Origin: Rubellimicrobium roseum
Lineage (GTDB): Bacteria > Pseudomonadota > Alphaproteobacteria > Rhodobacterales > Rhodobacteraceae
DNA: 64,000 bases
Direction of reading: 5' to 3'
NCBI RefSeq assembly: GCF_006152145.1
Contig: NZ_VDFV01000008.1
Span: 62,001-126,000 of the forward strand
Every line of letters starts with the position of its first letter. Position 1 is the first letter of the stretch. The position numbers and the translations under genes are program-made. The notes beneath the pieces were generated by a model. That model had not been told where the DNA came from. It worked only from the letters and a program-made list of their open reading frames with translations, and did no database searches. Shown piece after piece: positions 31,024 to 35,519 of this stretch.

Positions 31024-32037
31024 CTAGGGCGCCGTGGCCCGAAGTTCACGTTTTTTCTCGGCCAGCTCGCTCAGGAGCGGCCCGTAGTCGTCCAGGAGGT
31101 CCACGGGAATGCCCTGGGCGCGCAGCTCGGCCACCGCGCCGGCCTCGGCCGCGCGGCCGGCGCGGCGCAGCGTCACGCGCCGGACGCGGCCCGGATGACG
31201 GGCGGCAACGGCGGCGTAGATCGCGGCGTCGTGCTGGCCGGTGTCGCCCACGAGCCAGAACGGCAGGCCGGGATTGGCGGCCATGAGGCGGTCGATGACG
31301 CCGCCCTTGTGCTCGCCATGCGAGGTCGGTCCTTCCTGCAACTCGCCGATCCCGAGGTCTCGCAGGAAGAGCGGCGCCCGCACGAGGCCCGCGCGGGCGA
31401 AGAGACCCTCGAGGAAGGCGTGGAGGTTCCAGGGTGAGGAGGAGACGAAGAAGACCGGGTTGCGCCCGGCCTCGGACAGGCGGGCGAGGAGTTCGACCGC
31501 ATCGGGGAAGACGTGGCGGCTCTGGATGTTGCCGGTCAGGGTGGTCCAGAGATTGCGCGGCAGGTTCCAGGCTCCGGTGGCGATCACCGTGTCGTCGATG
31601 TCCGAGACCACGGCCATTCGCGCCCGGGGGTTCGGGATCTGCACGGGGAGGCGCGCATGGGCCCCCTCGGCCTCGACGGCGACCTCGGCCCAGCCCCGGG
31701 CGTCGGACTGGGGGATCAGGAGGTTGAAGTAGCCCTCCTCGTCGGTGATGGCCGAGACGCCATGGGCGGGCGCCGTGACCGTGACCTCGGCCACTTCGTC
31801 GGTCAGGAAGAGCGAGAGCATCTGGAGCAGGTTGCGCCAGGGGCCCTGACCGTGGCGGGCCTGGGGCCGCTTCAGCCGGGACAGGACCCGGCCGCGGGCG
31901 ATCCAGTGGTCGGGGGTGGCGTAACCAAGGTAGACCTCGATCACCGGCGGGCCGGCCCGGACCGGCTCGAACGGGCCGAAGGCGGATTCGAGACGGCGCC
32001 CGGTCCGGGCCAAGAGCCGTAGGAGGCCACGTTTCAT
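31024..32037 (-). CDS. App1-family phosphatidate phosphatase-like protein (DUF2183)
   Basis: A 337-residue protein. A beta-sandwich-like N-terminal part (about 30-135) precedes a HAD-like catalytic domain with DIDDT (146-150, the DxDxT nucleophile motif), FVSSSPWNLHAFL and the GDTGQHD motif. Yeast App1 dephosphorylates phosphatidic acid at actin patches; in bacteria the substrate is not established. The start MKRGLLRLLA avoids an upstream extension through the repeat-containing spacer. Confidence 0.88.
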   Translation of the reverse strand: MKRGLLRLLARTGRRLESAFGPFEPVRAGPPVIEVYLGYATPDHWIARGRVLSRLKRPQARHGQGPWRNLLQMLSLFLTDEVAEVTVTAPAHGVSAITDEEGYFNLLIPQSDARGWAEVAVEAEGAHARLPVQIPNPRARMAVVSDIDDTVIATGAWNLPRNLWTTLTGNIQSRHVFPDAVELLARLSEAGRNPVFFVSSSPWNLHAFLEGLFARAGLVRAPLFLRDLGIGELQEGPTSHGEHKGGVIDRLMAANPGLPFWLVGDTGQHDAAIYAAVAARHPGRVRRVTLRRAGRAAEAGAVAELRAQGIPVDLLDDYGPLLSELAEKKRELRATAP

Positions 32038-32771
32038 GGGAAGATCGTCCCGGAACGGCATCCGCCGGAGGGCGCGCGGGGCCTCCGGGAGGTTGAGCAA
32101 GAAAGGCCCGTGTACATGCCATCGGACGAGGGTCTGCACAAGTCCGGCGCGGCAGCTTCCCAGCGGTCACGACGGGGTGTTCCCGGAGCATTCCGGCACG
32201 ACGTCGCGGGTCGGGCCCTAGGTCACCCTTGGGTGCGCGGCACCTGGGAGAGGCAGCCCCATCGGGCATTCGAAGCGAAACCGACGCGCGCGGGTGAACA
32301 GAAGAGGTCCGCTTCGGGGAACGACGGCTCCAAGAGCTGATCGGCAGGCGCTGGCCCGCCACCGTCGCTCTTGAGCGGGCTGACTTCAGGCCTGAACACG
32401 AAGCGGCTCTCAAGGACCGCCAGGACGAGTTCCGGATACGTTTGCGCTACCTATGCCAGCAACGGCATCCGCCGGAGAGCGAGGGGAGCACTCTCCGGCG
32501 GGAACGGACCGCGACAGGGATTTCGCGGTCGAGAAACACGGCGCCTCGCTTGGGACAGGCATCGGGTATCGGCGCCGTTGTGAAAGATGAACGTCGAGCC
32601 TCTGAGCGGGTTCCAGTCTGTCGTTCGCTTTTTGCATGAAAACCTGGACTCGGCCGGATTGCGCCTTTGGTCGCGGCCGGGCCAATGTATCTGGACCCGC
32701 CCCGGCGATGCGCTAACCTACTCTGGACAATGGCGGACCGCGGGGAGCGGCCGAGGCGAGGGAGAACGGGA
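32038..32771. other. 734-bp spacer with a duplicated 17-mer and hairpins, no intact gene
   Basis: No frame gives a convincing protein. AACGGCATCCGCCGGAG occurs at 32054-32070 and again at 32461-32477. The second copy starts a perfect 11-bp hairpin (32469-32479 with 32491-32501) and the first a CCGGAGG/CCTCCGG hairpin. A plus-strand frame from about 32300 to 32641 is open without an ATG and reads charged, protein-like sequence over the first 55 codons; it could be a gene remnant. Base composition is less GC-skewed than the flanking genes. Confidence 0.5.
32054..32501 (+). repeat. direct repeat of a 17-mer with hairpins (two copies)
   Basis: The exact 17-mer AACGGCATCCGCCGGAG begins at 32054 and at 32461, about 400 bp apart. 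Each copy is followed by sequence complementary to its second half, giving stem-loops. This resembles short palindromic extragenic repeats; only two copies are visible in the window. Confidence 0.55.
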
Positions 32772-33260
32772 ATGAGATTCGGCATGATCGCAGCCGTGGC
32801 GCTGCTGGCCCCCGGCGCGTCCTGGGCGCAGGACGGCACGGGCGATGCGGCTGCGGGCGAGGAGCACTTCAACCGGCAGTGCATCTCGTGCCACGTCGTG
32901 CAGAACGAAGCGGGCGAGGTGCTGGCGGGTCGCAACGCCAAGGTGGGGCCGAACCTCTACGGCGTCGTGGGCCGGGTGGCAGGCTCGTATCCCGATTTCG
33001 CCTACAGCGACCTGATGATGACCTACGGCGCCACGGGCGCGGTCTGGGAAGAGGCGAACTTCACGGCCTACATCCAGGACCCGACCGGCTATCTGCGCGA
33101 GGCCACCGGCGAATCGGGGCGCAGCAAGATGGCGTATCAGGTGCGGGACGAGCAGGAGGCGCACGACCTCTATGCCTATATGGCGACCTTCTCGTCCGAC
33201 GCCGCCGCCGCTCCGGCGGAAGGCGAGGCGCCGGCCGAAGCGGAGGCGCCTTCGCAGTGA
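32772..33260 (+). CDS. secreted cytochrome c (class I)
   Basis: A 162-residue protein with a signal peptide (1-19, cleavage before QDG), one haem site CISCH (37-41), the GPNLYGVVGR stretch that follows the haem in c2/c550-type cytochromes, and Met 120 in SKMAY as probable distal ligand. The last 20 residues are a low-complexity Ala/Glu/Pro tail. It should work as a periplasmic electron carrier. GGGAA precedes the ATG. The next gene is 43 nt downstream on the same strand but is functionally unrelated. Confidence 0.92.
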   Translation: MRFGMIAAVALLAPGASWAQDGTGDAAAGEEHFNRQCISCHVVQNEAGEVLAGRNAKVGPNLYGVVGRVAGSYPDFAYSDLMMTYGATGAVWEEANFTAYIQDPTGYLREATGESGRSKMAYQVRDEQEAHDLYAYMATFSSDAAAAPAEGEAPAEAEAPSQ

Positions 33261-33303: not shown

Positions 33304-35019
33304 ATGATCGTCTATTCCGACCGCCGGCGCCGCGTGGCGCCGCGCGAGTTTCTGGAGCGGCTGATTCGGAGCTTCGGAGCGCCGAGGCACGATACGCTTG
33401 CACTCCTCGTCGAGACGGGGGTGCTGGAGGCAGGGGTCGCGGACGCGCTCTGCCCCGAGGAGGACCACCAGGGGGAAGGTCTTGCGGAGCTTCGCGCGGC
33501 GATGCTGGATCTCGCGCGGGCTCTGCGCGGGGATGCCGACCGCCTGGTCTCGGCCCGCAAACGCCTGGCGGGAATCGCGGCCCGGCTTTCCCCCGAGCCG
33601 GTCGAGGTCTCCGAGCCCGAGGGCTTCGCCTTTTACGCGCTCTATCCCGAAACCTATGCCGAGGCGGCGCGGCGCTTCCTGCGGGCGGAGCAGCCCGAGC
33701 GGGCGATGGTCGTGGGCCTGCGGAGCATCGGCACGACGCTCTCGGCCGTGGTGGCGGCGGAGTTGGAGGCGCAGGGCGTGGAGGTGACGAGCTTCACCGT
33801 CCGTCCGCGCGGCCATCCCTGGGACCGGAAGCTGCGGCTTTCCCCGGAGCTGCGCGCGGGCCTGGGCCAGGGCGGGCCTGTCCTGATCGTGGACGAAGGG
33901 CCAGGGATCAGCGGCAGCTCCTTCGCCAGTGTGGCAGAGGCGGCGTCGGAGGCCGGGGTGCCGGACGACCGCATCCACCTGTTCCCGAGCTGGGACAGCG
34001 ACGGGTCGGGCCTGCGTTCCGAGCGGGCGCGGGCGGTCTGGCCACGGGTGAAGCGTTGGGTCGTGTCCTTCGAGGAGACGTTCCTCGACACGGGCCGGCT
34101 TGCGGCGGCCTGGGGCGGAGGCGGCCTGCGGGACATCTCGGGAGGGCTGTGGCGAGAGGTGGTCCCGTCGTGCCGGGACGTCGCCGTACAGCCCCAGCAC
34201 GAGCGCCGGAAGTATCTTCTGGAGCGGGGGGACGGGACGCCACTCCTGCTCAAGTTCGTGGGGCTGGGGGATCGTGGCCACCGGGCGCTCGCGCGGGCCG
34301 AGATCCAGGCGGCGGACGGGTTCGCGTCTCCCGTGGCGGGCCTGCGGGACGGGTTCCTGGCTCAGGAATGGGTCAAGGGGCATCCGGCCGGGAGTGCTCT
34401 GCACGCCCGGACAGCAGAGGACACCGGGAGCAACTGGTCGGCCACGATGGGAAGGTATCTCGGCCACCTCGCGACGCAGACGAAGGGAGCGGCGCGCTTC
34501 GACGACATCCTGGCCATGGTCCGGCTCAATGTCGGCGAGGGCCTGGGCGGGGAGGCCTTGGGGCACGTGGCATGGTTGGAGCGGATGCGCGCAGCGGTCG
34601 AGGCGCGGCCCGCCGTGGCGGTGGACGGTCGGATGCTCCCTCAGGAATGGCTGCGGAGCGAGGCGGGGGAGCGGCTCAAGTGCGACGGTCTCGACCACCA
34701 TGATGACCATTTCTGGCCCGGCGCGCAGGACATTGCCTGGGATCTGGCCGGGGCGATGGTGGAATGGGGCATGGAGCCGGAGGCCCGGGAAGCCCTCCTG
34801 CAGCACTACGAGTCGTGCAGCGAGATCCGTCCGGGCGCACGGGATGATGGCGCCCGCGAGGTGCTGCACTTCTACGAAGCCACCTATCTGGCGTACCGGC
34901 TGGGCTACACCACGCTTGCGGCCGAGACGCTGGGCAGCGGCGAGGACGGGTGCCGAATGGCGCGCGACAGGGACCGCTATGCGGGGCTCCTGCGGGCGGC
35001 GCTGGAGCGGGGCGCGTGA
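33304..35019 (+). CDS. phosphoribosyltransferase-kinase fusion protein
   Basis: A 571-residue cytoplasmic protein of unknown function with two recognisable halves. Residues 130-210 look like a type I phosphoribosyltransferase: VVGLRSIGTTLS (136-147, PPi-loop-like), a loop 161-176, and VLIVDEGPGISGSSF (193-207), the PRPP-binding motif. Residues 295-490 resemble an aminoglycoside-phosphotransferase-type kinase: strand LLLKF with Lys 317, hinge LAQEWVKGHP (352-361), and KCDGLDHHDDHFWPGAQDIAWDLAG (split: 459-468 and 472-482) in place of the HxDxxxxN/D loops, degenerate but ordered. It overlaps a HAD phosphatase gene by GTGA. Similar PRTase, kinase and HAD sets occur in proposed Ter-type stress metabolite pathways. 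Confidence 0.75.
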   Translation: MIVYSDRRRRVAPREFLERLIRSFGAPRHDTLALLVETGVLEAGVADALCPEEDHQGEGLAELRAAMLDLARALRGDADRLVSARKRLAGIAARLSPEPVEVSEPEGFAFYALYPETYAEAARRFLRAEQPERAMVVGLRSIGTTLSAVVAAELEAQGVEVTSFTVRPRGHPWDRKLRLSPELRAGLGQGGPVLIVDEGPGISGSSFASVAEAASEAGVPDDRIHLFPSWDSDGSGLRSERARAVWPRVKRWVVSFEETFLDTGRLAAAWGGGGLRDISGGLWREVVPSCRDVAVQPQHERRKYLLERGDGTPLLLKFVGLGDRGHRALARAEIQAADGFASPVAGLRDGFLAQEWVKGHPAGSALHARTAEDTGSNWSATMGRYLGHLATQTKGAARFDDILAMVRLNVGEGLGGEALGHVAWLERMRAAVEARPAVAVDGRMLPQEWLRSEAGERLKCDGLDHHDDHFWPGAQDIAWDLAGAMVEWGMEPEAREALLQHYESCSEIRPGARDDGAREVLHFYEATYLAYRLGYTTLAAETLGSGEDGCRMARDRDRYAGLLRAALERGA

Positions 35020-35519
35020 GCCCGTTTCCCCCGCACATCCGCCTTGTCATCTTCGACGCGGACAACACGCTGCGGCGGGTCACGGTGCCCGGCCGCGTCT
35101 GCCCCTGGGGGCCCGAGGAATGGGAGCCCTTGCCCGGCATCCGCGCGGCCCTTTGCGGGCTCCGCTGGGGAGCCGGGGGGCTGCTCCTGGGGATGGCGTC
35201 GAACCAGGACCAGGTCTTCTACGGGCATCTGACGGCCGATATGGCGAGGCGGTTGCTGCTGGATGCGGCGGAGGCGGCCACCGGGCATCGGCCCCCGGAC
35301 GGTGCCGTGCGTTTCTGCATCCATGCGATGGACGCGGGCTGCGGCTGCCGCAAGCCCGAGCCAGGCCTGCTGCACGAGGCGATGGAGTTCCAAGGCATGG
35401 ACCCCGGCGCCACCCTGTTCGTGGGTGACGCCGACGTGGACCGCGAGGCCGCGCGGCGGGCGGGCGTGGCCTTTCTCCACGTGGACGACCTGCTGGCCGG
35501 GCGTCAGGGAGCCGGCTGA
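35016..35519 (+). CDS. HAD-IIIA phosphatase with GmhB-type zinc loop
   Basis: A 167-residue HAD hydrolase with a GTG start inside the previous stop. Motif I is FDADNT (13-18), motif II MASNQ (60-64), motif III Lys 113, motif IV VGDADVD (136-142). Between II and III it has C-x-H-x5-C-x-C (Cys101, His103, Cys109, Cys111) followed by RKP, the zinc site of D,D-heptose-1,7-bisphosphate phosphatase GmhB, but with a shorter loop. No other heptose gene is nearby. Coupled to the PRTase-kinase fusion, it probably dephosphorylates the product of that protein. Overlaps convergent glgX by 16 nt. Confidence 0.85.
   Translation: MSPFPPHIRLVIFDADNTLRRVTVPGRVCPWGPEEWEPLPGIRAALCGLRWGAGGLLLGMASNQDQVFYGHLTADMARRLLLDAAEAATGHRPPDGAVRFCIHAMDAGCGCRKPEPGLLHEAMEFQGMDPGATLFVGDADVDREAARRAGVAFLHVDDLLAGRQGAG

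Follow-up and report, generated by a model that had tools for sequence, protein, structure and literature searches.

A phosphoribosyltransferase–kinase-fold fusion coupled to a HAD phosphatase in Rubellimicrobium roseum, a possible tailoring unit of an inositol-glycoside pathway

What would a bacterium make with a protein that joins a phosphoribosyltransferase-like half to a kinase-like half, and whose gene overlaps that of a phosphatase? The question is raised by two genes in a 64,000-nucleotide stretch of the Rubellimicrobium roseum genome (contig NZ_VDFV01000008.1, positions 62,001 to 126,000; hereafter ‘the window’). Gene A encodes a phosphoribosyltransferase (PRTase)-kinase-fold fusion, which we call PKF, and gene B a phosphatase of the HAD-IIIA type. 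We propose, at a probability of roughly 0.45, that genes A and B form a two-step tailoring unit of an inositol-glycoside pathway, in which a phosphoribosyl transfer would be followed by dephosphorylation. PKF connects a protein family lacking a model in Pfam, NCBIfam and PADLOC to a gene set that is conserved and seems to have been scattered by horizontal transfer, and the varied phosphatases beside it give a concrete, testable reaction to a protein listed as hypothetical. A copy in the laboratory strain Sinorhizobium meliloti 1021 makes knockout and product analysis possible; if the proposal is true, these would reveal a new ribosylated inositol glycoside.

Two folds and a zinc-loop phosphatase

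A first-pass annotation, made from the sequence alone, had placed both genes and their GTGA overlap exactly (Table 1), and the peptide it quoted for a phosphoribosyl pyrophosphate (PRPP)-binding fold, VLIVDEGPGISGSSF, is found in gene A. The ATG start of gene A is supported, as homologues begin at the same place. Structure prediction agrees with the quoted fold. Modelled alone from 47 alignment rows, the N-terminal half reached a pLDDT of 94.7, and its best match in the Protein Data Bank (PDB) was the guanine PRTase 1dqn (E 8.5e-4), the sole match below 0.001. Further matches included APRT, HGPRT, OPRT and PyrR, interspersed with periplasmic binding proteins and others, and in a viral structure library the top match was again a PRTase (E 7e-3, none below 0.001). 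The predicted type I PRTase fold is in our view a good but remote assignment.

Conservation was read from an alignment of 50 members, comprising the window PKF and 49 of the 56 PKF loci (L012–L067) found by a peptide-pattern scan of an 84,980-species genome collection; seven partial loci (L052, L057, L058, L059, L060, L061 and L067) stand outside it, and relatives fitting neither of the two scan patterns would have been missed. The predicted PRPP-binding loop carries an acidic pair followed by (S/T)-G-x-(S/T), with D197, E198, G199, P200, G201 and G204 identical in all 50 members, S203 in 49 and S206 in 48. This conservation is partly selection, as one scan pattern contained PEG and the other VDEGPG. 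DEGPG is kept in all 26 of the alignment rows that lie outside the VDEGPG pattern, and G204, together with R140, R167 and R175 of the two other putative active-site loops, lies outside both patterns.

For the C-terminal half, the full-length AlphaFold2 model (50 alignment rows; pLDDT 93.7, pTM 0.93) gave the choline kinase LicA (4r77) as its top Foldseek match at E 1.4e-7, and the 50 PDB matches listed were all choline/ethanolamine kinases or macrolide/aminoglycoside phosphotransferases (APH). A PKF profile reached LicA at only E 0.02 in HMMER; matches of the profile to ribosomal protein eS1 (E 0.02 and 0.64) were taken as chance. The annotation's APH-like kinase fold is thus recovered, and its description of the catalytic loop as degenerate is a reasonable reading. 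The loop is aberrant: the HxDxxxxN motif is replaced in most members by D-[GNS]-[RK]-x4-E-W, with Glu at the catalytic-loop Asn position in 47 of 50. Aligned by eye, D441-G-R443 falls on H-G-D and puts Arg at the catalytic Asp position, whereas HMMER places D441 on the catalytic Asp of LicA at the cost of a two-residue insertion, behind which D441 may act as the catalytic base. D441 is invariant, as are K303, W449, K459 and D480. With two registers fitting, degeneracy is possible yet unproven.

Gene B likewise has the GmhB-like C-x-H-x5-C-x-C site that had been assigned to it. It scores 51.7 bits against TIGR01662 (HAD-SF-IIIA; cut-off 44.6), and its nearest PDB chain is the GmhB structure 4pnh (E 1.6e-13), with which type it shares the DxD, Ser/Asn, Lys and Asp motifs as well as the zinc loop. 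The two GmhB equivalog models nevertheless score below their cut-offs (PRK08942, 59.3 versus 178 bits; TIGR00213, 26.2 versus 149.6 bits), and on the former score the substrate of gene B is probably not a heptose bisphosphate. Among the other HAD partners, one (G231) scores 43.7 bits, just below the TIGR01662 cut-off, and one from Blastocatellia has Cys in place of H103 and Arg in place of C111.

As to family status, the window PKF gave no match at E ≤ 1 in Pfam, in NCBIfam or, as a single sequence, among PDB chains, and PADLOC returned 0 matches for five proteins at E ≤ 0.01. Sixteen Pfam families touch the 50 aligned members, in one member each (Collagen at E 1.7e-7). S. meliloti RCAM1750 lists its PKF protein as hypothetical, and a literature search of open-licence papers found no paper on the PKF family or on TIGR04295, a family that recurs below. 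The folds themselves are known; the PKF fusion, the PKF family and its place in the gene set are without a model in the Pfam, NCBIfam and PADLOC libraries, in keeping with the earlier suggestion of an undescribed system.

Table 1. Features of genes A and B, in window coordinates; identity counts refer to the 50-member PKF alignment or to the aligned HAD partners
Feature	Position	Strand	Basis
Gene A, PKF, PRTase-kinase-fold fusion, 571 aa	33304..35019	+	Open reading frame, shared homologue starts; AlphaFold2 model
PKF N-terminal part, residues 1-272: mostly helical extra part of ~100 residues, then type I PRTase core	33304..34119	+	Separate model, PDB matches
R140-S-I-G143, putative pyrophosphate-binding loop	33721..33732	+	R140, G143 identical 50/50; putative, by position in the fold
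R167-P-x-G-H-P-x-x-R175, putative flexible catalytic loop	33802..33828	+	R167, R175 identical 50/50; putative role
V196-D-E-G-P-G-I-S-G-S-S206, predicted PRPP-binding loop	33889..33921	+	Conserved in the 50-member alignment
PKF C-terminal part, residues 273-571: choline-kinase/APH-like fold	34120..35016	+	Foldseek of full model
D441-G-R443-M-L-P-Q-E448-W449, catalytic-loop equivalent	34624..34650	+	D441, W449 50/50; R443 47 R and 3 K; E448 47/50
K459-C-D461-G-L-D-H465, putative metal-binding (DFG-like) equivalent	34678..34698	+	K459 50/50, D461 47/50, H465 48/50; putative role
Gene B, HAD-IIIA phosphatase, 167 aa, GTG start	35016..35519	+	TIGR01662; nearest PDB chain 4pnh
GTGA overlap of genes A and B	35016..35019	+	Sequence
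D14-x-D16, HAD nucleophile motif	35055..35063	+	Invariant in 6/6 aligned HAD partners including the window's
C101-x-H103-x5-C109-x-C111, GmhB-like zinc-loop site	35316..35348	+	Complete in 5 Rubellimicrobium-type rows including the window's

Phosphatase neighbours and the associated gene set

A survey of PKF neighbourhoods for conserved pairing, as the annotation had recommended, found the PKF and HAD pair in all six Rubellimicrobium loci of the pattern scan and in one Blastocatellia locus, and a GTGA or ATGA junction is also present in L012, L013, L014, L015, L027 and L028. The pairing is above chance. More broadly, 30 of the 56 loci have a phosphatase of one of four kinds no more than 300 bp from PKF, the nearest being a HAD in 7, a DSP in 11, a histidine phosphatase in 7 and a PHP in 5, and these kinds belong to unrelated superfamilies. 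Counted the other way, 7/7 HAD, 11/11 DSP, 6/6 PHP and 7/18 histidine phosphatase places adjoin PKF. As a control, the loci hold 703 other called genes, of which 36 have a phosphatase neighbour at this distance; the 703 include some codon-usage gene calls that are probably antisense artefacts and were left uninterpreted. In the PKF tree, the HAD partners fall into two clades kept apart by starred branches and the DSP partners into one, while the histidine phosphatases require four changes and the PHP partners two. The histidine phosphatase of the window's genome has alpha-ribazole phosphatase as its best model (114.5 bits, cut-off 162.9). That four unrelated phosphatase folds adjoin one enzyme argues that the PKF product bears a phosphate needing removal, as would be expected if it were 5-phosphoribosylated.

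The wider neighbourhood was counted by an all-against-all comparison of the genes called in the PKF loci together with tblastn. Across the 56 loci, a glycosidase-type family (GHx) is found in 31, two families of CgeB-type glycosyltransferases in 24 and 20, inositol-phosphate synthase (INO1) in 23, a GT4 glycosyltransferase in 22, the methyltransferase family TIGR04290 in 17, Gfo and a zinc dehydrogenase in 13 each, PIG-L in 6 and the radical SAM family TIGR04295 in 3; among phosphatases, histidine phosphatase is found in 17, DSP in 11, HAD in 7 and PHP in 6. Where at least 5 kb is available on both sides, 26 of 37 loci have INO1, GHx or TIGR04290. A whole-genome search for the 25 loci without GHx gave strong matches for 16 (one partial, and another on the PKF contig shortly past the flank), fragments or weak matches for two and none for seven. 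GHx thus accompanies 47 of the 56 PKF loci, which span phyla, as against 4 of 215 genomes of one class (strong and full-length), or 9 of 215 when a weaker fused form is counted. Similarly, TIGR04290 exceeds its cut-off in all four PKF genomes of our order and class samples (G000, G231, G335 and G361), as compared with 6 of 292 order genomes and 14 of 289 class genomes.

In the window's own genome, the corresponding genes are found on a different contig (C65, about 261-268 kb), where a CgeB-type glycosyltransferase, an NTP-transferase, PIG-L, GT4, the histidine phosphatase, TIGR04290 (355.6 bits, cut-off 300), GHx and INO1 are present; in Rubellimicrobium sp. CFH 75288, INO1 is directly followed by PKF and the HAD gene. 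PKF therefore seems to be part of a gene set that is conserved though scattered, and whose product may be an inositol-containing sugar compound. The small pathway making or processing a phosphorylated metabolite that had been proposed for the two genes finds support in its probable phosphorylated intermediate but does not look self-contained. PKF and gene B rather resemble a tailoring step split off from a larger set, eight genes of which are on the other contig.

A proposed reaction and its rivals

In the tailoring scheme that we favor, the PRTase half of PKF would bind PRPP and move 5-phosphoribose onto an acceptor, based on a cyclitol or a sugar, that the enzymes of the associated set produce, running in the synthetic direction. 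The kinase-fold half would bind, and perhaps phosphorylate, the acceptor or the product. The HAD phosphatase of gene B would then take off the 5-phosphate, a task that would fall to the DSP, histidine or PHP phosphatase in related loci. What is observed here are the folds, the conservation of the PRPP-binding residues, the coupling of the two genes, the co-occurrence with the set and the variety of phosphatases beside PKF; the acceptor, the direction, the part played by the kinase half and the final product are inferred. Several observations weigh against this scheme. The structural match of the N-terminal half is remote, and the PKF loop (DEGPGxSGSS) is one residue longer than the textbook PRPP consensus. 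The Fisher p value for the phosphatase neighbours (1.9e-20) is inflated, the families having been picked after inspection. The sequences are related, and in 26 of the 56 loci, several of them cut by contig ends, none of the four phosphatase families comes within 300 bp. Nor is such a neighbour special to PKF, since 14 of 32 GHx places and 8 of 23 INO1 places have one within the same distance; some loci hold two, and the phosphatase could act on another intermediate. For a further histidine phosphatase of the set, the best model is MSMEG_4193 rather than alpha-ribazole phosphatase. The seven PKF genomes in which the whole-genome search found no GHx are all titled metagenome-assembled genomes (MAGs). 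Finally, the gene set does not require PKF: four genomes with GHx (G437, G494, G535 and G565, the latter three also with INO1) gave no PKF match, at most four candidates per genome having been scored. A more ambitious form of the proposal, in which PKF is a new class of bifunctional ribosylating enzyme that equips an inositol-based scaffold with a phosphate as well as a 5-phosphoribosyl group, and the set makes a ribosylated inositol pseudo-oligosaccharide common to at least seven phyla including the legume symbiont S. meliloti, is doubtful.

There are other possible explanations for the pair. The substrates of APH and choline kinases are small metabolites with hydroxyl groups, and DSP phosphatases often pair with kinases, so that the kinase half could be the working enzyme, acting on an inositol glycoside or sugar, with the PRTase fold only binding its substrate or regulatory PRPP and the phosphatase reversing or completing the phosphorylation. 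The invariant D441, K303, K459 and D480 and the nearly invariant D461 speak for such a reading; the rearranged loop with Glu at the Asn position, the substitution of Arg for the putative ATP-binding K317 in 11 of 50 members (Lys in the other 39) and a PRTase half whose residues are conserved at least as strictly make it unlikely. The same aberrant loop would suit a PRPP/ATP sensor without catalytic activity that controls the glycoside pathway in the manner of PyrR, a regulator of pyrimidine genes that stands at ranks 35 and 36 among the structural matches of the N-terminal half. We regard a sensor as quite unlikely, given the invariance of the putative PRPP-contacting residues, R140, R167 and R175 included, and a translational coupling to a phosphatase that is probably more usual for enzymes.

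Two further readings change the direction or the purpose of the pathway. A ribosylated or phosphorylated glycoside might be broken down for salvage by GHx, the phosphatase and PKF, as GHx is a glycosidase-type barrel and the Gfo neighbour is similar to inositol dehydrogenase, though at 108.6 bits it stays under the cut-off of 355. INO1, a nucleotidyltransferase, several glycosyltransferases and methyltransferases in the set indicate synthesis instead, and the operon of PslG, the closest relative of GHx with a solved structure, makes a polysaccharide, so that breakdown appears improbable. The annotation had also been reminded of Ter stress pathways, in which a nucleoside-like signal would be made for stress response or defence; the PRTase and HAD phosphoesterase combination does match the proposed signal-making part of Ter systems (PMC7824862). 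This likeness is not supported: none of the 16 Pfam families touching the 50 PKF proteins (E ≤ 1, with no search aimed at ter genes) is a Ter family, the PADLOC result above is empty for all five proteins, no phage record encodes a match to the window PKF, and the annotated recurrent neighbours are sugar-pathway genes. A Ter-like role is accordingly very improbable.

Known relatives, distribution and neighboring observations

PKF shares with the type I PRTases (guanine, adenine, hypoxanthine and orotate PRTases and PyrR) the core fold and the acidic-pair PRPP loop, and differs from them in having no sequence-model match, a longer loop, an extra N-terminal part, a kinase-fold fusion and a context of glycoside rather than nucleotide synthesis. 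With LicA and the macrolide and aminoglycoside phosphotransferases its C-terminal half has in common the fold, a W-D-x-A motif and a DFG-like Asp; the replaced HxDxxxxN loop and the weak profile match set it apart. Pairs of a PRTase and a phosphatase carry out ribosylation in butirosin (BtrL/BtrP), cobalamin (CobT/CobC) and decaprenyl-phosphoribose synthesis. The logic alone is what these have in common with our proposal for PKF, namely phosphoribosyl transfer and then removal of the 5-phosphate; the histidine phosphatase of the window's genome resembles the CobC model below its cut-off, and the kinase-fold fusion distinguishes PKF from all three. The set further recalls mycothiol biosynthesis in its INO1, GT4, PIG-L deacetylase and MSMEG_4193-like phosphatase families, although INO1 of the window's genome scores 441.7 bits against a cut-off of 638 and its GT4 34.1 bits against the MshA cut-off of 462.5. 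The clusters of TIGR04290 and TIGR04295, two NCBIfam families without a stated function, presumably correspond to those labelled ‘rhizo-twelve’. They share CgeB-type glycosyltransferases and SDRs with the PKF set, and one PKF locus has TIGR04295 at 701 bits (cut-off 400), as compared with a best score of 22.3 bits in the window's genome. Unlike these clusters at large, PKF goes with the INO1/GHx branch.

PKF is rare, with 2 carriers among the 292 genomes of the order sample and 3 among the 289 of the class sample (G000 counted in each), and spans at least seven phyla: the tree of 49 loci includes Pseudomonadota, Myxococcota, Nitrospirota, Acidobacteriota, Verrucomicrobiota, Planctomycetota and Fibrobacterota, and a partial match was seen in a MAG titled Ilumatobacteraceae. 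The copy of S. meliloti 1021 lies on pSymB (NC_003078.1, 253401-255086); a search with the S. meliloti PKF matched 89 plasmid records, 66 from Sinorhizobium. Alphaproteobacterial PKFs are not one group in the tree. A well supported set of 19 (100/99) unites those of Sinorhizobium, Sphingomonas and Caulobacteraceae with Variovorax, Myxococcaceae and Acidobacteriota, while the PKFs of Rubellimicrobium, Arenibaculum and a Rhodospirillales MAG fall outside it, the nearer kin of the Rubellimicrobium PKF being weakly supported (82/49). This splitting and mixing with other phyla suggests horizontal transfer. Two candidates were set aside: an apparent homologue in G131 (E 9e-4), whose open reading frame reads by eye as an XRE-type regulator and whose match disappeared with the profile, and the G412 matches (1.1e-5 and 4.3e-5), which cover the kinase part only and were dropped from the four matches listed for the class. 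In G361 (contig C589), part of the PKF kinase region is repeated in inverted orientation near a contig end, possibly an assembly fault.

GHx itself (L070:16069-17031; 17 aligned members, sharing 60-73% identity with the first row across different phyla) has a PslG-like GH-A barrel and appears to be a circular permutant: the WNEPNN motif stands at its start, and the stretch resembling the N-terminus of an ordinary enzyme (weakly, E 0.32) makes up roughly the final 100 residues. A fused relative carries these two segments in the usual order, 196-294 and then 6-185 (E 8e-17 and 6e-33). One such GH-A domain of the GHx type is fused to an SDR epimerase (L126:3413-5500) in a TIGR04290/TIGR04295 cluster without PKF, and the same two-segment order is seen in G306, G323, G385 and G451. 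Just upstream of the inositol module of the window's genome lies a gene for a CYP152-like fatty-acid peroxygenase (L070:9632-10879; 454.9 bits, cut-off 600).

In the window, a cytochrome c gene (32772-33260, same strand) ends 43 bp upstream of PKF, and a relative of it is found 25-71 bp upstream of PKF in L012, L015 and L028; given this close same-strand spacing, the two genes may be co-transcribed. Further upstream, a divergent gene (31024-32139, minus strand) encodes a protein with a phosphatidate phosphatase APP1 catalytic domain.

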